Part shown: positions 3,752 to 32,065 of the stretch, one piece after another
Numbering within the stretch: position 1 is the first letter of the stretch
How the letters are laid out: every line of letters starts with the position of its first letter
Assembly (NCBI RefSeq): GCF_000426645.1
Contig: NZ_AUFT01000015.1
Location: forward strand, 124,001 to 188,000
Direction of reading: 5' to 3'
From: Nakamurella lactea DSM 19367
Lineage (GTDB): Bacteria; Actinomycetota; Actinomycetes; Mycobacteriales; Nakamurellaceae
DNA length: 64,000 bases
Notes under the pieces: model-generated
Databases searched by the model: none
The model's input: only the letters and a program-made list of their open reading frames with translations
What the model was told of the DNA's origin: nothing
Program-made: the position numbers and the translations under genes

Positions 3752-4460
3752 TAGGAGGGCGCCTCGCTCTATTTGCCCGCGCTCAGCGTCGACAGCCCGT
3801 GCCAGATGTCAGTCGTACCGTGGTGACACTTCGCGAAAGTCCCAGGTTGCTCATCGAAATGGCCATCTGGCGACACTGGGACCGGTATCCGGCGACGACC
3901 TCTCGGATCATTTGCCTCTCTTCGCCACTCTTCGACCGCTCCGACAGAAGCCAAGACCACCGGAAAGGGGCGCGCTGCCATCCAGACCACGTTTTTGAAG
4001 CTCTGCAGAGTAGACAGTGCCCAAACAACTTCGGCTCTCCGCCGTACCACTTGAGCCATCAGGCGGAATCCGACTGCGTTCGCTCCGAGCCACTGGGCTT
4101 CCCCTTGTCAGAAGCGTGACTGTGCTTACTCATCGAATTGCTGGAGCCTCTCGGACCGCGAAGCGTTACCAACACACTGATCCAGGAGTCTCCCGCATAT
4201 GACCGACGACCTGGTCCCGCCGTCCGATGTCGTCCTTCCGCTGATCCGATCGACCAGTCCTGATTTCTGGCGAAATTTGGTGGCCACCCAGCATGGCTCC
4301 CGGAGGAGGACTCGGGGCCGGTTGCGGGATCTGCGGATCGACGCCCGGCTTGGCCCCGGCGGAAGGCTGCCCTGCCCTACCATGAGGGTCGATGCCGGCG
4401 ACCGTCGCCGAAAGCGCCGCCGACGCCGGAACGCAGAGCCGGGGAATTGCAAGGAGAACC
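3752..4460. other. Long intergenic region without a clear gene
   Basis: There are 709 bases between the terminator and the CitE-like lyase. Several short open frames exist on both strands, for example from 4199, but none has a ribosome site or family features. The final bases contain the AAGGAG site for the lyase at about 4451-4456. The base composition is slightly less GC-rich than the neighbours. It may be a decayed gene or a long regulatory region. Confidence 0.4.
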
Positions 4461-5408
4461 ATGCCCGTCGTACCCTTCCAGGCGCTCGGACCGCGGCTCG
4501 AGCGGCCTACCCGGCTGCGCCGCTCGATCCTGTCCGTTCCCGGTTCCAGCGAGAAGATGCTGGCCAAGGCCGTGACCACCGAGGCCGACGAGGTGCTGCT
4601 GGACCTTGAGGATGCCGTCGCCGCGGCGGAGAAGCCCACCGCCCGTGCAAAGATCGTCGAGGCACTGAACACCCACGACTACTCTGGCAAAGTCGTCGCG
4701 GTCCGGGTGAACGACGCCGCCGGGCCGTTCCAGTACCGGGATGTGATTGAGCTCGTGCGAGGCGCCGGCGGCCACATAGACACTTTGGTTCTACCGAAGG
4801 TGCAACATCCCGGTGAGGTCTGGTTCGTCGAACATCTACTCAGCCAACTCGAGCGAGACCTGGGGCTGGATAACAGGATCGGCCTGGAGCTGCAGTTCGA
4901 GTCCGGCGCCGGTGTCACCTTCGTCTCCGCTATCGCCGAGGTCACCGACCGCACCGAGGCCTTGGTGTTCGGGCCCGGCGATTACGCCGCCGATCTGGGG
5001 CTCGACCAGACCGATATTGGCCGGATCGAACGCGGCTACCCCGGCCACCAATGGCACTACGTCCTGTCCCGACTGGTGACCACCGCCCGGGCGTTCGGGG
5101 CGGATGCGATCGACGGTCCGTTCGCCGATTTCCGCGACGAGCGCGGCCTACGGGAGTCCGCCGGCCTGGCCCGGCATCTGGGGATCGACGGAAAGTGGTG
5201 CATCCATCCTTCGCAGATCCCGGTGGTAAACCACACGTTCACCCCGTCCGCGACGGCGGTCGGACGAGCCAGGGAGGTGCTGGAAGCGTTGGCACAGGCG
5301 AAATCCGCTGGTGCCGGCGCGACCGCTCTGGACGGTGCGATGATCGACGAGGCCACTCGTAGGATGGCTGAGCGCATTGTCGCGCGCGGGGAGGCGGCTG
5401 GCATGTGA
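4461..5408 (+). CDS. CitE-like CoA-ester lyase, probable citramalyl-CoA/malyl-CoA lyase
   Basis: This 315-residue HpcH/HpaI-CitE family protein probably cleaves a 3-hydroxyacyl-CoA such as citramalyl-CoA to acetyl-CoA and pyruvate. Visible family marks are RSILSVPGSSEKM (21-33), LDLEDAV (about 48-54), a RVND strand, the Mg-binding Glu in ELQFESGAGV and the Asp in VFGPGDYAADLG. The C-terminal WCIHPSQI loop is also conserved. The ATG at 4461 has AAGGAGA just upstream; an upstream ATG at 4392 lacks one. The Mct-like and Meh-like genes lie within 5 kb and would supply citramalyl-CoA, which favours this substrate over malyl-CoA. The exact substrate is inference. Confidence 0.85.
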   Translation: MPVVPFQALGPRLERPTRLRRSILSVPGSSEKMLAKAVTTEADEVLLDLEDAVAAAEKPTARAKIVEALNTHDYSGKVVAVRVNDAAGPFQYRDVIELVRGAGGHIDTLVLPKVQHPGEVWFVEHLLSQLERDLGLDNRIGLELQFESGAGVTFVSAIAEVTDRTEALVFGPGDYAADLGLDQTDIGRIERGYPGHQWHYVLSRLVTTARAFGADAIDGPFADFRDERGLRESAGLARHLGIDGKWCIHPSQIPVVNHTFTPSATAVGRAREVLEALAQAKSAGAGATALDGAMIDEATRRMAERIVARGEAAGM

Positions 5409-5413
5409 CCGTT

Positions 5414-5432
5414 CGGCGGGGCCGCCCCGCCG
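5414..5432. terminator. Bidirectional hairpin terminator between convergent genes
   Basis: CGGCGGGG (5414-5421) pairs with CCCCGCCG (5425-5432) around a 3-base loop. It fills the 42-base gap between the stops of the lyase (plus) and the acyl-CoA dehydrogenase (minus). Confidence 0.7.
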
Positions 5433-5450
5433 TTCCGCGGATGGGTCACC

Positions 5451-6653
5451 CTACCCAGCGTCTTGCGTATAGAGCTGCATCAGCCGCCGCCCAATGATCA
5501 TCCGCTGGATGTCGGCCGTTCCCTCGCCGATCAGCAGCATCGGGGTATCCCGATAAAGCCGCTCGATCTCGTACTCGGTGGAAAAGCCGTACCCGCCGTG
5601 GATCCGCATCGACGCCTCGACCACCTGCTGGCCGTACTCGCCAGCGAGGTACTTAGCCATCCCCGCTTCCAGGTCGTTTCGCTCGCCGGTGTCCTTCTTC
5701 CTGGCGGCGTTCACCACCAGGGCATGGGCCGCCTCGATCTTGGTGGCCATCTCGGCCAGCCGGAACTGGATCGCCTGGTGCTCGGCGATCGGTTTACCGA
5801 AGGTCCGTCGCTGCTGCGCGTAGGCGATGGCAAGCTCGAACGCCCTGATGGCCACGCCGACGGCCCGGGCCGCCACATTCACCCGGCCGACCTCCACCCC
5901 GTCCATCATCTGGTAAAAGCCGCGGCCGGGGACGCCCCCGAGTACCTGGTCCGCCGACACCCTGTGTTCGTCGAGGATCAGCTCGGTAGTGTCGACTCCC
6001 TTGTACCCCAGCTTGGAGATCTTGCCCGGCACGGTGAGCCCCGGTGCGGTCTCGCCGAATCCGGGTTCCTTCTCGAGCAGGAACGTGGTCAGGTTCTGGT
6101 GCGGGCGCGGCGCACCCTCGTCGGTCCTGGCCAGCAGTGCCACAAGGTTGGCCGATCCGCCGTTGGTCAACCACATCTTCTGTCCGGTGATGGAGTACTG
6201 GCCGTCCGCCGGGCCGGCTGCGTGGGTGGTGATGGCGGCGACGTCGGATCCCAGAGCGGGTTCGCTCATCGAGAAGGCGCCACGCACATCCCCAGTTGCC
6301 ATCCGTGGCAGGTAGTGGGCGCGCTGTTCGTCGGTGCCGTGCTGCAGCAAGAGGTACGCCACTATGAAGTGAGTGTTGATGATTCCGGACACGCTCATCC
6401 AGCCGCGAGAGAGTTCCTCCACGACGAGCGCGTAGGTAAGGAGCGATTCCCCCAGGCCACCGTACTCTTCGGGGATCATCAGCCCGAACACTCCCAGATC
6501 TCGCATCCCGGCAACGATGTCGGACGGGTACTCGTCGTTTCTCTCCAACACCTTTGCCGTCGGTATGATCTCCCGGTCGACGAAGGTGCGCACCAGGTCC
6601 AATATCTCTTGCTGTTGCTCGGTCAGCCCGTCAGTGGTCGCAAGTCGGCGCAT
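5451..6653 (-). CDS. Acyl-CoA dehydrogenase
   Basis: This FAD enzyme of 400 residues oxidises an acyl-CoA to the 2,3-enoyl-CoA. It shows the three-domain family layout: helical N-terminus, beta domain with FSMSEPALGSD and WLTNGG (about 128-165), and a helical C-terminus with RIHGGYGFSTEYEIERLYRD. The catalytic Glu is present at 377 in IGEGTADIQ. The start is ATG 6653, preceded by GAAGGGA; it lies 23 bases inside the end of the CoA-transferase upstream on the same strand, so the two are probably translationally coupled. Beside the Mct-like gene, methylsuccinyl-CoA is an attractive substrate (giving mesaconyl-C1-CoA). However, known methylsuccinyl-CoA dehydrogenases are longer, so this is only a guess. 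Confidence 0.88.
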   Translation of the reverse strand: MRRLATTDGLTEQQQEILDLVRTFVDREIIPTAKVLERNDEYPSDIVAGMRDLGVFGLMIPEEYGGLGESLLTYALVVEELSRGWMSVSGIINTHFIVAYLLLQHGTDEQRAHYLPRMATGDVRGAFSMSEPALGSDVAAITTHAAGPADGQYSITGQKMWLTNGGSANLVALLARTDEGAPRPHQNLTTFLLEKEPGFGETAPGLTVPGKISKLGYKGVDTTELILDEHRVSADQVLGGVPGRGFYQMMDGVEVGRVNVAARAVGVAIRAFELAIAYAQQRRTFGKPIAEHQAIQFRLAEMATKIEAAHALVVNAARKKDTGERNDLEAGMAKYLAGEYGQQVVEASMRIHGGYGFSTEYEIERLYRDTPMLLIGEGTADIQRMIIGRRLMQLYTQDAG

Positions 6654-7944
6654 CGCGGATTCCCTTCGATCGTTCACTGCCGTCGAACACCACGCCGTCA
6701 CGACATAGGACGGCGATCACCTCCGGGTCCATGCTGAGCCGCTCGCGCAGCAGTTCCACGGTGTGCTCGCCCAACAGCGGCGCCGGTTGCGGCGCCCGGC
6801 GTGTAGAGATCAGGTCCAGGGGTGACGCGGGAGCCAAATACTGCCCGATCCCCGGCTGATCCAGGGAACGCATCATCGCACGATCGTGATCCCAGTCGGC
6901 CGGCTCGCTGCCGGCGGTGAGATCGGCGACGACATCGGTAAACGTTCGGTACCGTTCCCAGAGCACCGAGGTCTTCGCGAGTCCGGCCGCAGCAGCGTCC
7001 GCATCATGCCGAGAGAACCAGGCCTGCACTAGGTCCGCCAACACCTCGCGGTGGGTGTACCGGTCCGCCTCCAAAGAGAAGTCCACCGACAGCGCCGCTT
7101 CGAGCGCACTGACCAGGTTGGCGATGTCGGTTAGTGCCACCAGATCCCGCCAGTGTCGCTGGGTCAGCGCGACTACCATGATGCGCCCACCGTCGGCACA
7201 GGCGAAGTCACGGGCGAAGCTGCCGTACATGTGGTTCCCGACGCGAGGCCGGTCCACCCCGTTCACCTGCGCCTCGGCGAGCAGGCCCAGGTTGCCGGCG
7301 GTGGCCAACGCGACATCGGAAAGGGCCAGCCGAATGCGCTCGCCTGCTCCCGTGGTGCTGCGGCGCAGCGCAGCAGCGCAGATCCCCACGGCGGCATACA
7401 GTCCGCAAGCGACGTCCCAGGCCGGCAGCACATGGTTCACCGGGCCGGACCAGCCGTCCGGGCCAGTGATAGACGGGAATCCCAGGCCGGCGTTGACCGT
7501 GTAGTCCACAGCCGGCGAACCGTCCGGACGCCCGAGGATCTCGACGTGGATCAGGTCGGGGCACACCGCAGTCAGGTCGTCGGCGGCCAGTCCACCGCGG
7601 CCGGCCGAGTTCGTCAGCACCACTCCGGTGCCCGGTGCAAGTCCTGCGACCAGATCCCGAATCAGACCACGACCCGTCTCCGAGCGGAGATCGGCGACCA
7701 GCGATCGCTTGCCCTTGTTCAGCCCTGCCCAGTACAGACTCGCCCCGGACGAGGTGACCGGCCAGCGGTCCCGGTCTGCAGCACCACCGATCGGATCGAC
7801 CCGGATCACCTGGGCGCCAAGTTGCGCCAGCGTCATGCCGCCCAACGGCGCTGCCACGAAGGACGAGATCTCGACCACCCACAGACCGCTCAGCGGCCCG
7901 CGGGAATCGTCGACGCCCGGTGCCGACTCCGTTGATCCGGGCAC
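6631..7944 (-). CDS. CaiB/BaiF CoA-transferase resembling mesaconyl-CoA C1-C4 CoA transferase (2-methylfumaryl-CoA isomerase)
   Basis: This 437-residue family III CoA-transferase closely recalls Mct, which moves CoA within one molecule from C1 to C4 of mesaconate. Blocks that I associate with Mct rather than with other CaiB proteins are SSFVAAPLGGMTLAQLGA (27-44), DPIGG with RWPVT, YWAGLNKGKRS, AVDYTVNAGLGFPSITG around the presumed catalytic Asp147, PVNHVLPAWD (168-177) and LYGSFARDFACADG-type spacing. The start is GTG 7944 after a GAGGTGA site. It overlaps the following acyl-CoA dehydrogenase. A GntR gene and a 16-bp direct repeat lie upstream. Family membership is certain. The Mct function rests on remembered similarity and on the Meh-like and lyase neighbours. 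Confidence 0.78.
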   Translation of the reverse strand: MPGSTESAPGVDDSRGPLSGLWVVEISSFVAAPLGGMTLAQLGAQVIRVDPIGGAADRDRWPVTSSGASLYWAGLNKGKRSLVADLRSETGRGLIRDLVAGLAPGTGVVLTNSAGRGGLAADDLTAVCPDLIHVEILGRPDGSPAVDYTVNAGLGFPSITGPDGWSGPVNHVLPAWDVACGLYAAVGICAAALRRSTTGAGERIRLALSDVALATAGNLGLLAEAQVNGVDRPRVGNHMYGSFARDFACADGGRIMVVALTQRHWRDLVALTDIANLVSALEAALSVDFSLEADRYTHREVLADLVQAWFSRHDADAAAAGLAKTSVLWERYRTFTDVVADLTAGSEPADWDHDRAMMRSLDQPGIGQYLAPASPLDLISTRRAPQPAPLLGEHTVELLRERLSMDPEVIAVLCRDGVVFDGSERSKGIRDAPTCDH

Positions 7945-7970
7945 GTCTCACCTCATTCGTCCGGCCTCGC

Positions 7971-8005
7971 ATTTGTACGGCCATTAAGGATTTGTACGGC
8001 CATTA
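7971..8005. repeat. Direct repeat, candidate GntR operator
   Basis: The 16-base word ATTTGTACGGCCATTA occurs twice, at 7971-7986 and 7990-8005, 19 bases apart. It sits in the 93-base gap between the HutC-type GntR gene and the Mct-like gene, just upstream of the latter's ribosome site. Two same-face copies nearly two helical turns apart would suit a dimeric repressor; binding is inferred. Confidence 0.6.
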
Positions 8006-8037
8006 TGACCCGTAGGTCAGCGACTGTCCAGAGCGGT

Positions 8038-8796
8038 TCACTCCACCGCTGCGCGGAAAGGCTGTCGCCGCAAGGTGACCCGGTAGGCGTAGTGGCGGGG
8101 AACGAAATGGCTGATCGCCAGTTCCACTGCCACACCCGAGATGTCCTGGTACAAGCGCTCCACCAGCAGCAGTGGCTCGCGCGGCGACCCGCCGAGCACC
8201 CGACCCAGCTCCCGACCGGCCGATACCGCGGTGATCGTCTGCTCGGTGTGGGCGATCGGCACTTCCAACCGCCGGTCCAGCAGACCGAGGACAGTGTTCG
8301 GCGTCTTGCTGCCCGCCACGGCCAGCTCCTGGATGTCTGCCAGCAACGCGCCCACCGCCGGCGGCAGGTACACGCGGGTCTGGCAGATGACGTCCGCACC
8401 GTGGCGGCGTAGGAACCGCACGCTACTGACTGCAGCAGATCCCAGGCCGAGTCTGGCCGCTGGCCCCGGGTCGTCGTGCGTCCGAAGCGGCTCAAGGATC
8501 TCCAGTTCGGTGTCCTGAGACAGCGCCATCAGGTCATCGACGGAACCGAACTGCCGCAGGTACGGTGCATTCGGGTCGGCCGCGGCAAAGGTCCCCCGGC
8601 CTGGTACCCGGTAGATCACGCCCTCAGCCACCAGTTCCTGCATCGCCCGACGGACTGTCTGCCGGGACACCGCTTCGCGGCGCACCAGTTCGAGTTCGGT
8701 CGGCAGCGCGCTGCCGTCCGCCCACTCCCCGGCGCGCAGTCGTGCGCGGATCCCGTGGGCGAGCTGCCGGTACGCTGCCGGTCGTGACTTAGTCAC
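8038..8796 (-). CDS. GntR-family regulator, HutC/UTRA type
   Basis: The protein has 252 residues from the GTG at 8796. The N-terminal winged helix-turn-helix (about 5-70) includes LPTELELVRREAVSRQTVRRAM and a GRGTFAA wing. The rest (about 95-245) fits a UTRA ligand domain ending LYQDISGVAVELAISHFVP, a typical effector-pocket strand. GGGAGGAG lies about 11 bases before this GTG, whereas the longer ATG options at 8850 and 8853 have no such site. It is transcribed ahead of the Mct-like and dehydrogenase genes and diverges from the Meh-like gene across about 90 bases. It is therefore the likely local repressor, responding to an acid or CoA ester of the route. Confidence 0.88.
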   Translation of the reverse strand: MTKSRPAAYRQLAHGIRARLRAGEWADGSALPTELELVRREAVSRQTVRRAMQELVAEGVIYRVPGRGTFAAADPNAPYLRQFGSVDDLMALSQDTELEILEPLRTHDDPGPAARLGLGSAAVSSVRFLRRHGADVICQTRVYLPPAVGALLADIQELAVAGSKTPNTVLGLLDRRLEVPIAHTEQTITAVSAGRELGRVLGGSPREPLLLVERLYQDISGVAVELAISHFVPRHYAYRVTLRRQPFRAAVE

Positions 8797-8888
8797 CGAC
8801 TGTGTCTCCTCCCTGCCATCCAGGCGCACGGTCCCCCTGTCATCGTGCATCATGACCGGTGCACGTCCGCTATTCCTCGGAGTCGACC

Positions 8889-9725
8889 TTGAGCGAACAC
8901 TGCGCCCAGACCGATCATCTCGACTACCGCCGAGCGGCCGCTCTTGCCGGGCTGCTCGACCGGCCGGCGCCGGCTGTCGGGGATCCGCTGCCCCCCCTGT
9001 GGCACCTGATCTACTTCCTGCCGCTCGCCGCACAATCCGAGCTCGGCCCGGACGGCCACCCCCGTCAGGGCCTTCCGAGCCCGCCACGAGCTGGGATGCG
9101 GCGCTTGTTTGCCGGCGGGCGGATTACCTTCGCCGGCGCACTGATGGTGGGTGACGACGCCGAGGCACGCACAGACGTCATCCGCAGTGTCGACAAGGAC
9201 ACCCGCTCCGGCGGGCGGATCAGGTTCGTCACCAGCCGCACCGAGATCCGGGTTGACGACCGGGTGATCCTGACCGAGGAACGGGACATCGCCTACCTGG
9301 AACCGGCGACCCCGTCCACGCCCGCGCCCACGCCCACAGGACAGTCCGTCGGTACCGACACAGCGATCGAGCACCTGCGGGCCGAAGCGCTGCAGCACCG
9401 GTCGATCGCGGTGGATCCCACCCTACTTTTCCGGTTTTCGGCGCTGACCTACAACGCCCATCGCATCCACTACGACCTTAGCTACGCCCGCGAGGTCGAG
9501 GGCCACCGCGGGCTGGTGGTGCACGGTCCGCTACAGGCGCTGCTGATGGCCGAGCTGGCCGAGGCCGTTCGCGGGCCGATGACGGGGCACACCTTCGGCT
9601 ATCGGCTCGCATCGCCGCTGTATCTCGGAGAGGGCCTGACGGTCTTGGCCCGCTCGCCGGAGCAACTGTGCATCGCCGACGATAAGGGGCACATCACTGC
9701 TACGGCCGAGATCATCAGTATCTGA
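8889..9725 (+). CDS. Hot-dog fold dehydratase resembling mesaconyl-C4-CoA hydratase
   Basis: The protein has 278 residues and resembles Meh, which hydrates mesaconyl-C4-CoA to citramalyl-CoA, and the HTD2/FAS1-like dehydratases. The N-terminal half carries the characteristic GDPLPPLWHLIYFLP, AQSELGPDGHPR and GGRITF blocks. The C-terminal hot dog has FSALTYNAHRIHYDLSYA, with the Asn-His pair expected at the active site, and VVHGPLQALL. The TTG at 8889 follows CGGAG with good spacing, and the protein then begins as its relatives do; a GTG at 8859 would add ten residues. It diverges from the GntR gene and, with the Mct-like and lyase genes, completes a mesaconyl-to-citramalyl route. The substrate is inferred. 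Confidence 0.8.
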   Translation: MSEHCAQTDHLDYRRAAALAGLLDRPAPAVGDPLPPLWHLIYFLPLAAQSELGPDGHPRQGLPSPPRAGMRRLFAGGRITFAGALMVGDDAEARTDVIRSVDKDTRSGGRIRFVTSRTEIRVDDRVILTEERDIAYLEPATPSTPAPTPTGQSVGTDTAIEHLRAEALQHRSIAVDPTLLFRFSALTYNAHRIHYDLSYAREVEGHRGLVVHGPLQALLMAELAEAVRGPMTGHTFGYRLASPLYLGEGLTVLARSPEQLCIADDKGHITATAEIISI

Positions 9726-9726
9726 A

Positions 9727-9760
9727 ACATCTATAGGTCTTGATTCAAAGCTATAGATGT
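9727..9760. promoter_or_regulatory. Perfect AT-rich inverted repeat, candidate operator
   Basis: ACATCTATAG (9727-9736) is repeated as its exact reverse complement at 9751-9760, with a 14-base spacer. It begins two bases after the Meh-like stop codon and 67 bases before the crotonase start. The AT-rich arms and lack of a T tail argue against a terminator. Two half-sites 24 bases centre to centre suit a dimeric regulator. Confidence 0.55.
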
Positions 9761-9827
9761 ATGTACGCTCGCGTCAGGATGGTGCGGCGCACACAGGTGC
9801 GGCCACCCGATGGCACCGAGGAGCGGC

Positions 9828-10700
9828 ATGACCAAGCAGCAGATTCTGGTACAGCGCGACACCGACAACCATGTCGGCCGAATCACGTTGAACCGCCCGG
9901 ACAAGAAGAATTCCTACGACCTGACGATGCGGAACCAATTGGCGGATGCTCTGGATGAGCTGGCCGAGGACGACACAGTCAAGGCAGTGGTGCTGCGCGG
10001 TTCGAACGGAATCTTCTCCACGGGCGCCGATATGGGCAACGCCTACCGCTGGTACGCCAAGGGCGAAGAACTGGACCGGCCGTCCAAGTCACGCCCTAGT
10101 CAACGCACCCGGATCGCCGTGGACCGCAACACCTTCGACTTCTACCGGCGCCTAGGGTCGTATCCGAAGGTGACCGTCGCCGAGGTAACAGGATATGCCC
10201 TCGGTGGTGGGCTGGAGATGGCTCTGTATTGCGACATGTGTGTGATCGGCGAGGACACAAGGATCGGTATGCCGGCCACCCGCTTCCTCGGACCAGCCCT
10301 GGGATCGCTGCACCTGTTCTTTTACCGGCTCGGCCCGACGCTGACCAAGCGACTACTGCTGACCGGCGACATCGTGCAGGCGAGGGCACTCAGCCACTTG
10401 AACATCTTCACCGAAACCCTGCCGGACGAACAGGTTCCCGCCCGCGCCGCCTGGTTGGCCACAAAGGCGGCCAGGATGCCGGCGGACGGCATTGCCATTG
10501 CCAAGGAGGCGTTCCGACTGGTCGAGCAACTGCAGCACTACCAAGGTGAGGACGTGATCAGCCCGCTGATCCACGCGTTCGCGACGAACCTGCAGTTTTC
10601 CGCCGGAGAGTTCAACTTCGTCAAGACCCGGGCACTGCATGGCACCCGACAGGCCTTCGCCATGCGGGACGAGCATTTCGAGGTCCCCGAGCCGCAGTGA
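9828..10700 (+). CDS. Enoyl-CoA hydratase/isomerase family protein (crotonase)
   Basis: This 290-residue crotonase-fold protein binds an acyl-CoA. The CoA site and oxyanion hole are seen in NRPDKKNSYDL (near 22-32), STGADMG and GYALGGGLEMALYCD. The Glu equivalent to Glu144 of rat hydratase is present (GGGLEM). The position of the second catalytic Glu (Glu164) reads GMPATRFLG, with Ala instead, so it may not be a plain hydratase. An insert around YAKGEELDRPSKSRPS is longer than usual. The ATG at 9828 follows GAGGAG. It lies downstream of the Meh-like gene and of the inverted repeat at 9727-9760. Substrate unknown. Confidence 0.85.
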   Translation: MTKQQILVQRDTDNHVGRITLNRPDKKNSYDLTMRNQLADALDELAEDDTVKAVVLRGSNGIFSTGADMGNAYRWYAKGEELDRPSKSRPSQRTRIAVDRNTFDFYRRLGSYPKVTVAEVTGYALGGGLEMALYCDMCVIGEDTRIGMPATRFLGPALGSLHLFFYRLGPTLTKRLLLTGDIVQARALSHLNIFTETLPDEQVPARAAWLATKAARMPADGIAIAKEAFRLVEQLQHYQGEDVISPLIHAFATNLQFSAGEFNFVKTRALHGTRQAFAMRDEHFEVPEPQ

Positions 10701-11577: not shown

Positions 11578-12705
11578 TCATAGTCCGATGGCGAAGGGAT
11601 AGGGCCAGTCGGCTCCCCGGGCGGCGGCGAGCGGGTCATCGCCGGCGAGTTCGCGGCGTAGTTCTGTCGGAGTCCCGCCGAGCACCCGGTCGACCAGTGC
11701 CCTGCGCAGGAACAGGTTCACCGGGCAGTCCCAGGTGAATCCGTAAGCGCCGTGTAATTCGACGGCCCGTCGGGTCACCGCGACGAAGGCCTCGACGGCT
11801 TGATTCCTGGCCATTGCGGCGAGCCGAAAGGCATTGTGGGCTTCTGTGCCCAGCTCTACGCCCGCCTGGTCGACCCGGTACGCCGCCCCGAGGGCGATCG
11901 CCCGGACCGGGCGGGCCTGCACGACAAGGTCGGCGATCTGGTGCTGCACCGCCTGGAACGCCGCGATGGGGCGGCCGAACTGCTGCCGCTCGGATACATA
12001 CGCCAGCACCTGGTCCAGGCAGGAGCGGCTGCCACCTATCGCGTCCGCGGTGGTCAGTGTGAGGGCCGCGGCCCGAATCAGAGCACCCACCCCCGGTCCC
12101 TGCGCCAGAATCCGCACGGCGCAGTCCTGCAGGCTGATCGCCCCGTGATCCCGCACCAGGTCCAGCCGGCCCAGAGACTGCGTCCGAACGCCGGCATCAG
12201 CCAGGTCGACCCACGCCAACAGGTGCGGACCGGCTACCAGGAGCGCGTCGGTCCCGGCAGCCAGCGCTACCGCGGGCAGTTCACCGGAGACCCGGCCGGT
12301 CCTGGTCGGTTGTATCGCGGTGTCAGGAACAGGGGCGACGGCAACCCGTGTCTGTCCAGCGATCAGGTTGCGCACCAGCTCCCGCGCAGGCTCCGTCGCA
12401 ACCGACACTGTTGCCAATGCCCAAGCAGCCAGCGCCTGATCGACCGGCCATGTCGGTGCAGCGAACCGCCCGAGGGTGACCGCGGTCAGGTATAGGTCAA
12501 CGAACGACCCGCCGGCGCCACCGCAACTCTCCGGCACCGCCAGCCCTACGATTCCCACCTGATTGGCCAGCCGGTCGATCGCCGCAGTCACGGTCCCCAG
12601 TGCATCGTCCCGGGTGAGCGCGCCGGGTAGGCCGGCTCTGGTGCAGGCCTGTTCGATCGTCCCGATCAGTTCAAGCTGGTCGGGCGACGGGCCGAAACCT
12701 GTCAT
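11578..12705 (-). CDS. Acyl-CoA dehydrogenase, probable non-catalytic subunit
   Basis: This acyl-CoA dehydrogenase-fold protein of 375 residues has a shortened, divergent middle domain. The C-terminal segment where the catalytic Glu or the FAD-binding EGT loop is expected reads LGGTPTELRREL, without Glu. FAD/dimer features such as YVSERQQFGRPIAAFQAVQH and VELHGAYGFTWD remain. Its start ATG (12703-12705) overlaps the stop of the next dehydrogenase by 4 bases. Adjacent pairs of this kind form alpha2beta2 dehydrogenases in mycobacterial steroid side-chain degradation; one subunit supplies the base and the other only binds FAD. This one is probably the supporting subunit. Confidence 0.82.
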   Translation of the reverse strand: MTGFGPSPDQLELIGTIEQACTRAGLPGALTRDDALGTVTAAIDRLANQVGIVGLAVPESCGGAGGSFVDLYLTAVTLGRFAAPTWPVDQALAAWALATVSVATEPARELVRNLIAGQTRVAVAPVPDTAIQPTRTGRVSGELPAVALAAGTDALLVAGPHLLAWVDLADAGVRTQSLGRLDLVRDHGAISLQDCAVRILAQGPGVGALIRAAALTLTTADAIGGSRSCLDQVLAYVSERQQFGRPIAAFQAVQHQIADLVVQARPVRAIALGAAYRVDQAGVELGTEAHNAFRLAAMARNQAVEAFVAVTRRAVELHGAYGFTWDCPVNLFLRRALVDRVLGGTPTELRRELAGDDPLAAARGADWPYPFAIGL

Positions 12706-13859
12706 TGGTCGGCTCTGCGCTGTTCAGGCATCCCCAGTCCGCGCCGGGCCAGGATGTCCCGCTGGATGTTCGAGGTGCCGCCTGCGATTGTCAGGCCCAA
12801 GGACCCGAGGATCTGCGTCACCCAACGGGCCTCAACCACTTCGGTGCGCGGCAGGTCGGCAGCGACCGACGGCAGCAGGTCCATGGCCAGTGCGGCCACC
12901 TTCTCCTGGAAAGCCGACTGGAACAGCTTGTCGGTCAGACGCAACACCGTGAGGTCCTGGGCGGTACCGAAAGCCTGTTCGATGGTCGCGAAACGCTTGA
13001 CCTCCACTAGTTCCCGCAGTTCCATCAGCCGCTGGGCCAGGGCCGGGTCGTGAGGGGCGCCGCGCGCGGCGTACGCCCGCAGTAGTGCACGGAACAGAGT
13101 GCCGAGCCGACCGGCGCCGCTGATCATCGTTCGCTCGTGCCGCAAAGTCGTGGTCGCGACGGTCCATCCGTTCCCGGGTTCTCCCACTACGTGGTCCAGT
13201 GGGGTGCGGGCATCGTCGAAGATGACCTCGTTGAAGGTGGCCGCGCCGGTGATCTGCCGAATGGGTTCGACCCGGACGCCCGGCTGGTCCATTGGTACCA
13301 GTATGTAGCTGAGCCCGTCGTGTCCGCGGTCTGCGGCATCGGTGCGCGCAAGCACGAAGACGTAGTCGGCGTCCGCGGCGTAAGACGTCCAGATCTTGCG
13401 TCCGTCGATCCGCCAGTACCGGTCGTCGGTAGCGGTGGCCCTGGTGGTCACACTCGCCAGGTCGCTGCCAACCCCTGGCTCGCTGTACCCCTGGCACCAA
13501 CGTATCTGTCCAACGATGGTGGGACCCGCGAAGGCTTTACACAGAGCGGGGTTGGCGTGCTCCAGCAGGGTCGGCACTACCATCCTGGCTCCGATAGAGT
13601 CCAGTTCACCCGGCGCCTGTACCGCGCGGAACTCGGCGTCGATGATCGCCTCGCTGATCACGTCGCTGTCCATCTCTGCCCCGCCGTAGGCTTTGGGCAC
13701 CCAGCGATACAGCAGCCCGGCGTCGATAGCGGTGCGCCGGAACGTTTCCGTCGATCCGGCGCGCTGCTCAACGGTGGACCAGTGGTCTGACAGAAACTCC
13801 TGGGCTCGCGCCCGCAGCTCCAAGTGGCTGTCGGTCAGATGCATAAAGGTTGCGGTCAT
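12702..13859 (-). CDS. Acyl-CoA dehydrogenase, probable catalytic subunit
   Basis: The protein has 385 residues from the ATG at 13859, one base after the upstream gene's stop, with GGAAG as ribosome site. The beta-domain motifs CQGYSEPGVGSD and IWTSYAADADY are clear. The usual C-terminal Glu is replaced (AGGTSNIQ), but LRHERTMISG carries a Glu at about 242, the position used as base by isovaleryl-CoA-dehydrogenase-like and heteromeric mycobacterial enzymes. Paired by a 4-base overlap with the next dehydrogenase-like gene, it likely forms a heteromeric enzyme acting on a bulky or branched acyl-CoA made by the upstream ligase. The substrate is inferred. Confidence 0.85.
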   Translation of the reverse strand: MTATFMHLTDSHLELRARAQEFLSDHWSTVEQRAGSTETFRRTAIDAGLLYRWVPKAYGGAEMDSDVISEAIIDAEFRAVQAPGELDSIGARMVVPTLLEHANPALCKAFAGPTIVGQIRWCQGYSEPGVGSDLASVTTRATATDDRYWRIDGRKIWTSYAADADYVFVLARTDAADRGHDGLSYILVPMDQPGVRVEPIRQITGAATFNEVIFDDARTPLDHVVGEPGNGWTVATTTLRHERTMISGAGRLGTLFRALLRAYAARGAPHDPALAQRLMELRELVEVKRFATIEQAFGTAQDLTVLRLTDKLFQSAFQEKVAALAMDLLPSVAADLPRTEVVEARWVTQILGSLGLTIAGGTSNIQRDILARRGLGMPEQRRADQ

Positions 13860-13860
13860 G

Positions 13861-14709
13861 TCAGCTTCCAGTGAACTGTGGTTGCCGTTTCTCACCGAAG
13901 GCCGCGATCCCTTCCTTGAAATCCCGGGAGCGGATGGTGAGCTCCACCGAGCGCGCTTCCCGGTCCATCGCGGCTGCCAACTGAGCCGAGGCGGCCGATC
14001 GCATCAGTTGCTTCGTCTCGCCGATGGCGACGGTCGGGCCGGCGGCCAGCTCATCGGCCCGCTGTCTGGCGACCTGGACAGCGTCGTCACCGGGGACCAC
14101 CTCGGTCACTAGACCCCACCTGGCCGCGGTGGCTGCGTCGACGATGCCGCCGCGCATCAGCATGTCGGTGGCGCGGGCCAGGCCGATCCGCAGCGGCAGC
14201 AGCAAGCTGCCGCCGGAGTCTACTGCGAACCCGCGCTGCGAGAATGGTTCCGAGAGTCTGGCGGAGCCGGCGGCGAAGATGAAGTCGCTGGCCAGCGCCA
14301 CATGGAGGCCTAGACCCATGGCACGGCCGTTCACCGCGGCTACCACCGGCAGAGGGCAGTCCCACAAAGACTGCACAAGTCGCGCCGCGCCGCGCCGCAG
14401 GCTCCGTTGCAGGTGTCCGATCCGCGGCGAGCTTTGCGCCCCGGCAGCTTCCAGGTCACCGCCGGTGCAGAAGTGGCGTCCTTCGCCGGACAGCAATACT
14501 GCCCTTACCGACGGGACCTCAGCGGTTCCCAGGTGATCGATAAGGGTGGCCAGTCGGGCACAGTCGACCGAGCGCAGCGCGTTGCCGCGGTGCGGGCGGT
14601 TCAGCTCGATGTGAAGCGTGCTCCCCTGCAGGTTCAACCGCAGGTCGGGTGAGGATCCCCCTGGCAAGATCTGTTCCATCTCCTGGATGGTGTCTGGTAC
14701 CTCAGGCAT
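13861..14709 (-). CDS. Enoyl-CoA hydratase/isomerase (PaaG-like crotonase)
   Basis: This 282-residue crotonase has HIELNRPHRGNALR and CTGGDLEAAG for CoA binding and the oxyanion hole. The active-site stretch FSQRGFAVDSGGSLLLP carries Asp where hydratases have Glu, as in PaaG and enoyl-CoA isomerases. The other catalytic Glu (Glu144) is replaced by His in GLGLHVAL. This points to double-bond isomerisation or a PaaG-like rearrangement rather than simple hydration. The ATG 14709 overlaps the ligase stop by 8 bases. It lies within the operon between ligase and dehydrogenase subunits. Confidence 0.86.
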   Translation of the reverse strand: MPEVPDTIQEMEQILPGGSSPDLRLNLQGSTLHIELNRPHRGNALRSVDCARLATLIDHLGTAEVPSVRAVLLSGEGRHFCTGGDLEAAGAQSSPRIGHLQRSLRRGAARLVQSLWDCPLPVVAAVNGRAMGLGLHVALASDFIFAAGSARLSEPFSQRGFAVDSGGSLLLPLRIGLARATDMLMRGGIVDAATAARWGLVTEVVPGDDAVQVARQRADELAAGPTVAIGETKQLMRSAASAQLAAAMDREARSVELTIRSRDFKEGIAAFGEKRQPQFTGS

Positions 14710-30801: not shown

Positions 30802-32010
30802 TTATTCGGCGCCCCGGGGACCGGATCCGATGACTCCGGCACTACGCCACTCCTGCAGTTCTGCCGAGGAGTAGCCGCACTCGCGCAACACCGACTCGGT
30901 GTGCGCCCCGAGTGCTGGCACGTCGCCCAATCGGAAACTCCAGCCTGGCACTTGCGGGACGGGCAGCAGCGCAGCTACCGGTCCCACCTCGGTGCCGATC
31001 TCTTGCCAACGTCCGCGGTCGACCAGCTGCGGATGTGTGAGCAGTTCTCGCGGCGTGTTCATCCGACCGTGGGCGACCCCGGCTCGCTCCAGAACCGTGC
31101 ATGCCTCATCGAGGGTCAACTGCTGCACGGCATCCGCCACCAGTCCGTGGATCTGCTCGCGATGCTCCGCCCGATTCTTCGCCCCGAGGTGGTCTGGAAC
31201 GTCCACCAGATCCGGGCGGTGCAGCAGTTCGACGCACAGCCGGCCCCACTCGCCGTCGTTCTGACACCCGAGCACCAACTGCTGTCCGTCGGAGGTTTCG
31301 AAGGCCCCGTACGGCACGATGGCATGGTGGCCGACGCCGTAGGGACGGTGGTCCTGCCCGGTGTAACGGGCGTAGTACAGGCTGTAGCCCATCCAGTCGG
31401 CCATGGCGTCGAACATGCTCACCGAGATGGGAGTACCGCGTCCGGTGCCCGCCCGCTCGAGCAGAGCGGCCAGCACGGTCGAGTAGGCGTACATTCCGAC
31501 CGCGATGTCGGCGACCGCAATGCCGGGTTTGGCCGGCGCGCCAGGGGTGCCGGTGATCGCCACCGACCCGGTCTCCGCCTGCACCACCAGGTCATAGGCA
31601 CGCCGACCGGACATCGGCCCGTCCTGGCCAAACCCGGAGATATCTACCGCGACCACAGTCGGATGTCGTGCCACCACGTCGGCGGCGGCCAGCCCGTATC
31701 GGGCGGCGACGCCGGGGCCGAGGTTCTGGACATAGATGTCGGAGCGGGTCAGCAATCGTTCGAGCGCCTGTCGGCCCTGCTCGGACCTGGTGTCGAGTTC
31801 GATGGATTCCTTGCCCCGGTTGAGCCAGACGAAATAGGTCGCCAGGCCGTTGACGTGATCGTCGTAAGCGCGACCAAAGTCGCCCCTGCCCGGACGTTCG
31901 ATCTTGATCACCCGGGCACCGAGGTCGGCGAAGTGTCGGGTCGCCAGAGGGGCGGACACCGCCTGCTCGATCGACACGACGGTCAAGTTCCGCAACGGCA
32001 GTGATCCCAT
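30802..32010 (-). CDS. CaiB/BaiF CoA-transferase, itaconate/citramalate-type relatives
   Basis: This 402-residue family III CoA-transferase begins LTVVSIEQAVSAPLATRHFADLG and carries FVWLNRGKESIELD, YVQNLGPGVAARYGL, and AYDLVVQAETG with the presumed catalytic Asp140. The opening recalls the mycobacterial itaconate/dicarboxylate CoA-transferases, which would fit the citramalyl-CoA lyase at 4461-5408; this is from memory and unproven. ATG 32010 follows GGAGGTG. Its promoter shares a divergent gap with the SDR gene, where a 9-3-9 palindrome lies at 32066-32086. Confidence 0.87.
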   Translation of the reverse strand: MGSLPLRNLTVVSIEQAVSAPLATRHFADLGARVIKIERPGRGDFGRAYDDHVNGLATYFVWLNRGKESIELDTRSEQGRQALERLLTRSDIYVQNLGPGVAARYGLAAADVVARHPTVVAVDISGFGQDGPMSGRRAYDLVVQAETGSVAITGTPGAPAKPGIAVADIAVGMYAYSTVLAALLERAGTGRGTPISVSMFDAMADWMGYSLYYARYTGQDHRPYGVGHHAIVPYGAFETSDGQQLVLGCQNDGEWGRLCVELLHRPDLVDVPDHLGAKNRAEHREQIHGLVADAVQQLTLDEACTVLERAGVAHGRMNTPRELLTHPQLVDRGRWQEIGTEVGPVAALLPVPQVPGWSFRLGDVPALGAHTESVLRECGYSSAELQEWRSAGVIGSGPRGAE

Positions 32011-32065
32011 CGACACCTCCTGTGCAGCAGCGCATTGGGGCTGACTCCGCACCCGCGGGCCAGCT

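Follow-up and report, generated by a model that had tools for sequence, protein, structure and literature searches.

The utilisation of methylsuccinate has been worked out in proteobacteria, and in the itaconate/methylsuccinate cluster described there a transferase activates the free acid and a dehydrogenase directly forms an unsaturated coenzyme A (CoA) ester, mesaconyl-C4-CoA, so that no shift of CoA from C1 to C4 is needed; mesaconyl-C4-CoA hydratase activity is also known for the itaconyl-CoA hydratase Ich (all as given in the available part of PMC12290011). Here, we describe a five-gene module at positions 4461 to 9725 of a 64,000-nucleotide stretch of Nakamurella lactea DSM 19367 (contig NZ_AUFT01000015.1, positions 124,001 to 188,000; hereafter the window), which encodes a CitE-type lyase, an acyl-CoA dehydrogenase, a class III CoA-transferase, a GntR regulator, and a hydratase. 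The closest characterised precedent of this module is the pseudomonad itaconate/methylsuccinate cluster (ict-ich-ccl-mcd), and not the half-cycle of the 3-hydroxypropionate pathway on which the original prediction for this DNA, made from its letters, had been modelled.

We regard it as moderately probable that the five genes are the actinobacterial counterpart of that cluster, that is, a known pathway in a new variant. In the proposed route, the class III transferase would load a 2-methyl-C4 dicarboxylate, most likely methylsuccinate, with CoA taken from succinyl-CoA or another donor, the dehydrogenase would then give mesaconyl-CoA, the Ich-type hydratase would turn this into citramalyl-CoA, and the CitE-type lyase would split the latter into acetyl-CoA and pyruvate. 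The GntR/UTRA protein would act at TTTGTACGGCCA as a repressor of the operon for transferase and dehydrogenase, and the acid or its CoA ester would relieve the repression. In this route, we infer the substrate and the CoA donor, the direction, the intermolecular mode of transfer, the repression, and the ligand.

The five frames showed no internal stops (Table 1), and the four enzyme families originally read around one GntR gene were confirmed by profile hidden Markov models (HMM) and phmmer, with Pfam scores of 139 bits for HpcH_HpaI, 163 bits for Acyl-CoA_dh_1, and 196 bits for CoA_transf_3, plus GntR and UTRA for the regulator. The transferase gene shares 23 bp with the dehydrogenase gene, in the manner of a coupled operon; the lyase gene is convergent to the dehydrogenase gene, and the hydratase gene is divergent from gntR.

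Table 1. Features of the module and its surroundings, in window positions.
Feature	Positions	Strand	Basis or remark
CitE-superfamily lyase, malyl-CoA/beta-methylmalyl-CoA lyase (Mcl1) type; probable citramalyl-CoA lyase	4461..5408	+	HMM, structure matches, residues
Acyl-CoA dehydrogenase; probable methylsuccinyl-type CoA dehydrogenase	5451..6653	-	HMM, FadE3 match, Glu motif
Class III CoA-transferase, Mct superfamily, without gate residue (Ala56)	6631..7944	-	HMM, residues, tree
Putative operator copy 1, TTTGTACGGCCATT	7972..7985	+	motif search
Putative operator copy 2, TTTGTACGGCCATT, 19 bp from copy 1	7991..8004	+	motif search
GntR/UTRA regulator	8038..8853	-	start codon unsure: 8853 or nearer 8799
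MaoC-type hydratase, itaconyl-CoA hydratase family; probable mesaconyl-C4-CoA hydratase	8889..9725	+	phmmer, 36% to PaIch
Crotonase-family protein 3' of hydratase gene	9810..10700	+	HMM
Second class III CoA-transferase, related to characterised itaconate CoA-transferase (Ict); possible activating enzyme	30802..32052	-	

The hydratase fell below every Pfam cut-off, and phmmer matched it to the solved itaconyl-CoA hydratase 8khg with an E-value of 2.4e-41. It is 36% identical to Ich of P. aeruginosa (PaIch), with the motif FSALTYNAHRIHYD kept, and 41–42% identical to four actinobacterial homologues encoded beside Mct-like or Ict genes (33% to a fifth). The lyase matched the structures 5ugr (221 bits), 4l9y (218 bits), and 8khl (84 bits), with 41% identity to 5ugr and 40% to the Rhodobacter Mcl versus 32% to Ccl of P. 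aeruginosa (PaCcl). All equivalents of the catalytic residues D42, E44, D45, R76, E141, D168, and D299 of MclR, as named in the available part of PMC3832036, are kept, and according to the same source, the Rhodobacter enzyme also forms citramalyl-CoA. The genome's other two CitE paralogues were rejected as close kin of this lyase (31%). Among 397 genomes of the order, the top match was found in genome G054 (49%), and a lower one in G045 (46%); in both, the lyase gene adjoins genes for a class III transferase (32–33% to the P. aeruginosa Ict, PaIct), a dehydrogenase, an MmgE/PrpD-like protein (33–34% to its P. aeruginosa counterpart), and small MaoC-like candidates. Lyases scoring between these two lay in other contexts in the three stretches read.

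The dehydrogenase matched the FadE3 structure 4iv6 with 369 bits and keeps the catalytic Glu motif GEGT; its identity was 47% to FadE3, 41% to 6es9, and 31% to Mcd of P. aeruginosa (PaMcd). We take 6es9 to be a methylsuccinyl-CoA dehydrogenase, its database entry reading acyl-CoA dehydrogenase. Five copies adjoining Mct-like or Mcl-like genes in other genomes were 69–74% identical to the window enzyme, which probably makes an unsaturated CoA ester. The core of the module reading is supported, namely catabolism of a branched C5 dicarboxylate in which a CitE-type lyase takes the last step and the unsaturated ester probably comes from the dehydrogenase; the intramolecular CoA-transferase (Mct) that it also contained is not supported. 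At four further loci of the order (L124, L126, L128, and L129), a dehydrogenase of the window type (68–71%) adjoins lyases of the Mcl type (42–47%) or is only a few genes away from them, and no Mct-like gene was recognised in these stretches.

At the level of sequence, the regulator and its putative site tie the transferase-dehydrogenase operon of the window to clusters with methylsuccinate/itaconate-type enzymes. The motif TTTGTACGGCCA recurred in gaps of the window and of seven related loci, and its two copies in the window lie 28–60 bp upstream of the transferase start. Over the whole 5.8-Mb genome, these two were the only sites at no more than one mismatch of the 15-letter pattern, and a reversed control gave none; within the window, at up to three mismatches, the site was no commoner than chance (4 matches against 3.71 expected), and only the exact copies stand out. 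Homologues of the window GntR protein were 35–52% identical, and most are accompanied by this site or one like it. Among 142 loci, which are not independent and were gathered before the motif was known, with seven loci of the own genome left out, the exact site was present in nine of the ten with a GntR homologue and in none of the 132 without one. Seven of the nine site-bearing loci had helped to define the motif, and in the tenth GntR locus, L035, which has no site, the GntR gene is cut by the contig end. The sites not used in the definition were those of L098 and L148, the matches of the class-genome search, and the exact sites in L180, L181, and L185.

The search of 394 genomes of the class found the exact site in four of them. 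Besides that of the window, one precedes an Ict-FadE3-GntR-ETF gene row, with an Ict 70% identical to the Streptomyces one, a second precedes an MmgE/PrpD-GntR pair near which a tricarboxylate transporter is encoded, and around the third (G748), nothing was recognised. As the reversed pattern also matched, at three sites in two genomes, the bare site alone proves little. Across 396 genomes of the phylum, a protein search with the regulator gave matches in 16, the window's included, and 16 loci around GntR homologues were compared; one further match, in G1071 (contig 370), is not among them. A dehydrogenase was encoded in 14 of them, 10 at 58–70% identity to PaMcd and 4 at 73–76% to the FadE3-like one of Streptomyces; the remaining two were L189, cut by a contig end, and L193, with none of these genes. 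Seven of the 16 carried MmgE (62–66% to the P. aeruginosa one), and in seven there was a transferase akin to the Streptomyces Ict (62–65%; one in pieces, 56–76%). Of the 12 other phylum GntR loci, 7 have the site as a palindromic variant, TTTGTACGTACA. With the consensus TTTGTACGKMCA, a site was found within 3.5 kb at no more than one mismatch in 26 of 29 GntR loci (the misses being L035, L179, and L190) against a single control match in all 29, a count that is partly circular because the consensus was widened after the phylum loci had been examined.

In L178 to L181 (genomes G047, G118, G022, and G100, all of family f7), FadE3-like and Rv0216-like genes occur together with the GntR homologue and a site that deviates by 0–2 mismatches, which suggests a dicarboxylate role for this gene pair. 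Family f7 is taken as Mycobacteriaceae because its genome G055 falls beside M. interjectum in the transferase tree, and the four f7 loci with a FadE3-like dehydrogenase are therefore probably mycobacterial. Locus L157 (G431) has the GntR homologue and the site together with four MmgE/PrpD-like genes (two by Pfam, two by BLAST at 32–33%), a TctABC transporter, and an IclR regulator. In Yersinia, the itaconate regulator ItcR is a LysR-type protein (PMC11275114), and no such GntR regulon appeared in the titles and abstract beginnings of the papers listed on itaconate or methylsuccinate degradation and its regulators.

In the original scheme, the transferase would act as an intramolecular Mct. Its best NCBIfam model is indeed that of Mct (TIGR04253, 2-methylfumaryl-CoA isomerase), with a score of 379.6 bits against a cut-off of 725, and its nearest solved relatives are two Mct enzymes (8apq, 360 bits; 7xkg, 354 bits; the next enzyme, 95 bits). 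It is 47% identical to Mct and was rejected as an Ict orthologue (27% to PaIct). In Mct numbering, it keeps the catalytic Asp165 (D177), Arg47 (R60), Tyr136 (Y148), Asn100, Asp135, Arg75, and Arg104, and lacks the Leu/Ile43 gate (Ala56), Phe101, and Arg314. In 61 genomes (own, genus, and order), a gap separates Mct-like proteins, with at least 319 bits, from other class III transferases, with at most 108. The active-site positions named in the available parts of PMC9813914 and PMC9196870 were compared over 112 rows, among them 91 strong ones, all from Actinomycetota and including the window, and 19 weaker ones. Asp165, Arg47, Tyr136, Asn100, and Asp135 were invariant in all 91, Arg75 was found in 87, Arg104 in 72, Arg314 in 5, and Phe101 in none; position 43 was Ala, Pro, Ser, Thr, or Gly, and in no case Leu or Ile. 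In the 19 weaker rows, Arg47 and Tyr136 occurred once each, most likely both in L012, an Mct-like row. Outside the actinobacteria, all eight plasmid-encoded Mct-like proteins among the matches listed (seven from proteobacteria, one from an uncultured bacterium) had Leu or Ile at position 43, and a Pseudonocardia plasmid row had Ser; these rows were chosen from 25 listed of 906 records, 13 annotated regions being compared and L146, without annotation, left out. In the tree, which bears on the clade comparison with characterised Mct proposed originally, the window transferase lies within a supported group of 18 actinobacterial rows, with the two characterised Mct outside this group and without a firm place among the other rows; the tool warns of long branches, and the plasmid rows are not in the tree.

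As the Mct cut-off was missed and the Leu/Ile43 gate is absent, intramolecular C1-to-C4 transfer by this enzyme is, on these residues, unsupported. We consider it rather unlikely that it is a true Mct after all, converting mesaconyl-C1-CoA to mesaconyl-C4-CoA once another enzyme, for example the Ict-like transferase at 30802–32052 or an acyl-CoA ligase, has activated the acid. Mct being the nearest solved enzyme, with R47, Y136, and D165 kept, speaks for this alternative, as do a Paraburkholderia plasmid on which the four families stand together around a transferase with Leu43 (59% to Mct) and the presence of an Ict-like transferase in the window itself. The latter is 44% identical to PaIct and 49% to an Ict encoded on a Streptomyces plasmid, and its gene clusters with thiolase, SDR, and crotonase genes. 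Since it lies 23 kb from the module, and 7 of the 80 named loci have Ict-like genes no more than 10 kb from the Mct-like ones, the pathway could employ two transferases and involve a real C1-to-C4 shift. Against it stands the gate, with Ala in the window and Leu/Ile in none of the 91 rows, whereas Leu/Ile43 is present in all intramolecular members named in the available part of PMC9813914; F101 and R314, both missing from the window enzyme, and the NCBIfam score also speak against it.

Several observations weigh against an itaconate/methylsuccinate pathway encoded by all five genes. The lyase is only 32% identical to PaCcl and the dehydrogenase only 31% to PaMcd, the latter thus not being of the PaMcd type, and the nine modules that share the regulator and the Mct-like gene have an Rv0216-like hydratase in place of the Ich type. 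No MmgE was recognised among the window genes scanned, and the only PF03972 (MmgE/PrpD) match of the genome lies on another contig. The Ict-like transferase at 30802–32052 could be the activating enzyme instead. No site at up to two mismatches precedes the window lyase or hydratase genes, the site being found only before the transferase-dehydrogenase operon, and by BLAST against the reference set, a lyase was present in only 1 of the 16 phylum GntR loci (L185, 49% to the window's) and an Ich-type hydratase in none, so that these loci match the window in the regulator and the early steps only. Finally, of the 80 named Mct-like loci, several of which end at contig ends, 34 have a dehydrogenase of the window type (single linkage at 40% identity) within 6 kb and 9 have a GntR homologue, whereas no GntR homologue was found within the stretch taken in the other 71, many of them with thiolase and SDR genes, which indicates that the transferase family serves other acids too.

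In another reading, which we hold to be unlikely, the module would act on a succinate with a different substituent at C2, or on a larger dicarboxylate derived from a ring, and release acetyl-CoA together with a 2-oxo acid other than pyruvate. The clusters of Mct-like and dehydrogenase genes with thiolases and SDRs, the large acyl-CoA catabolic island in the window, and the Gly at position 167 of the lyase, smaller than the Ala of Mcl, are in its favour, whereas a regulator and a site common to clusters of methylsuccinate/itaconate-type enzymes argue against it. Quite unlikely, in our opinion, is that the transferase, dehydrogenase, and GntR genes alone make up the unit, with the lyase and hydratase genes as neighbours that have no connection to it. 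The confinement of the site to the transferase-dehydrogenase operon, the convergent and divergent orientations of the two genes, and the lack of a lyase in most phylum GntR loci would fit this arrangement, but the same regulator is accompanied by a CitE-type lyase in seven and by an Rv0216-like hydratase in all nine of the related named loci (which all have the dehydrogenase gene as well), and in a Streptomyces plasmid cluster, the regulator occurs together with a lyase as well as an Ich-type hydratase. A glyoxylate/propionyl-CoA branch, in which hydration on the C1 side would give beta-methylmalyl-CoA for cleavage by the Mcl-type lyase to propionyl-CoA and glyoxylate, is very unlikely, for although the lyase is of the Mcl1 type and the Rv0216-like hydratases of the related modules are distantly similar to the beta-methylmalyl-CoA dehydratase 8hgn (80 bits), the window's own hydratase is of the Ich type and no crotonyl-CoA carboxylase/reductase (Ccr) passed the cut-off in the genome. 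As the best Ccr score in the genome was 79 bits against a cut-off of 378.55, nothing points to the ethylmalonyl-CoA pathway, and a role of the module in it was rejected.

Returning to the itaconate/methylsuccinate pathway as the preferred reading, a wider proposal, which we put forward tentatively and with somewhat more doubt than belief, is that the GntR/UTRA protein and TTTGTACGKMCA define an Actinomycetota-wide regulon of the methylsuccinate/itaconate type with freely swapped enzymes, in which, in the window's branch, an Mct-fold enzyme without its cork has become an intermolecular activator. The swaps would be between Ict- and Mct-type transferases, Ich- and Rv0216-type hydratases, and PaMcd- and FadE3-type dehydrogenases, and the mycobacterial FadE3/Rv0216-like pair would derive from this pathway. 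Rv0216 is reportedly termed a conserved hypothetical protein in the title of one paper. If true, the proposal would extend the picture to a regulon with a dedicated regulator and site throughout Actinomycetota, where FadE3, the Rv0216-like hydratases, and the actinobacterial Mct-like branch would receive a role open to testing. The natural gate-less relatives of Mct also offer a ready test of the cork model of intramolecular CoA transfer.

Around the module, a perfect 10-bp inverted repeat (ACATCTATAG and CTATAGATGT, separated by 14 bases) lies at 9727–9760, in the gap between the hydratase and crotonase genes, and is a candidate regulator site; inverted repeats were seen at 4396–4410 and 8844–8865 as well. 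Positions 11578–38485 form the acyl-CoA catabolic island, with an AMP ligase, a FAS1-type hydratase, an NDP-type acyl-CoA ligase, an ABC transporter, and thiolases. At its start (11578–13895), two dehydrogenase genes adjoin each other, one matching the C-terminal domain alone and the other the middle domain alone at the cut used.

Among the eight proteobacterial or uncultured plasmid Mct-like loci, five have a dehydrogenase of about 560 residues adjoining or two genes off, and no such dehydrogenase is annotated in the stretches of the other three. Identity of these dehydrogenases to 6es9 was 74% for Azospirillum brasilense and 42–43% for Paraburkholderia, Variovorax, and plasmid pAKD34. In the Azospirillum loci L144 and L149, a dehydrogenase of about 566 residues (that 74% copy being in L144) and an Mct-like gene with Ile43 lie near a 2-oxoglutarate dehydrogenase E1 gene. 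On pAKD34 (L145), an IncP conjugative plasmid, transposase genes flank the segment on both sides, so that the dehydrogenase-Mct-like pair looks mobile.

When the module is set beside known systems, itaconate dissimilation is reportedly known from Mycobacterium tuberculosis (PMC6689899), and the CitE-like structures 6aq4 and 1z6k, which we take to be the lyase of that route, matched the window lyase with 80 bits only. Haloarchaeal mesaconate enzymes have actinobacterial homologues, the transferase there belonging to another class III family (37% to YfdE; available part of PMC5592240). The P. aeruginosa and Cupriavidus necator cluster (ich, mcd, mmgE, ict, ccl; PMC12290011, as far as available) has the same four steps by family, these being a class III CoA-transferase, an acyl-CoA dehydrogenase, an Ich-family hydratase, and a CitE-superfamily lyase. 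Unlike that cluster, the window has an Mct-type transferase, a FadE3-related dehydrogenase, and an Mcl1-type lyase, and its regulator is GntR/UTRA, whereas a LysR gene lies beside the P. aeruginosa cluster. The nine named modules, from Rhodococcus, Gordonia, Streptosporangium, and others, share with the window the regulator, the site (exact in eight), the transferase type, and the dehydrogenase gene; they differ in their hydratase and in a lyase that is 36–39% identical to the window's in the three compared. On a plasmid of Paraburkholderia sp. D15 (L140), the four families lie within 8.7 kb, with a hydratase 39%, a lyase 30%, and a transferase 45% identical to those of the window, a dehydrogenase of 569 residues (33%), and an annotated LysR gene and no annotated GntR, and the scheme of the original prediction may well hold there. 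In the plasmid cluster of Streptomyces sp. NBC_00564 (L148), the GntR protein is 50% and the Ich-family hydratase 41% identical to the window's, a CoA ester lyase and a FadE3-like dehydrogenase are present, and the exact site stands twice between the transferase and hydratase genes; the difference lies in the transferase, which is of the Ict type (58% to PaIct).

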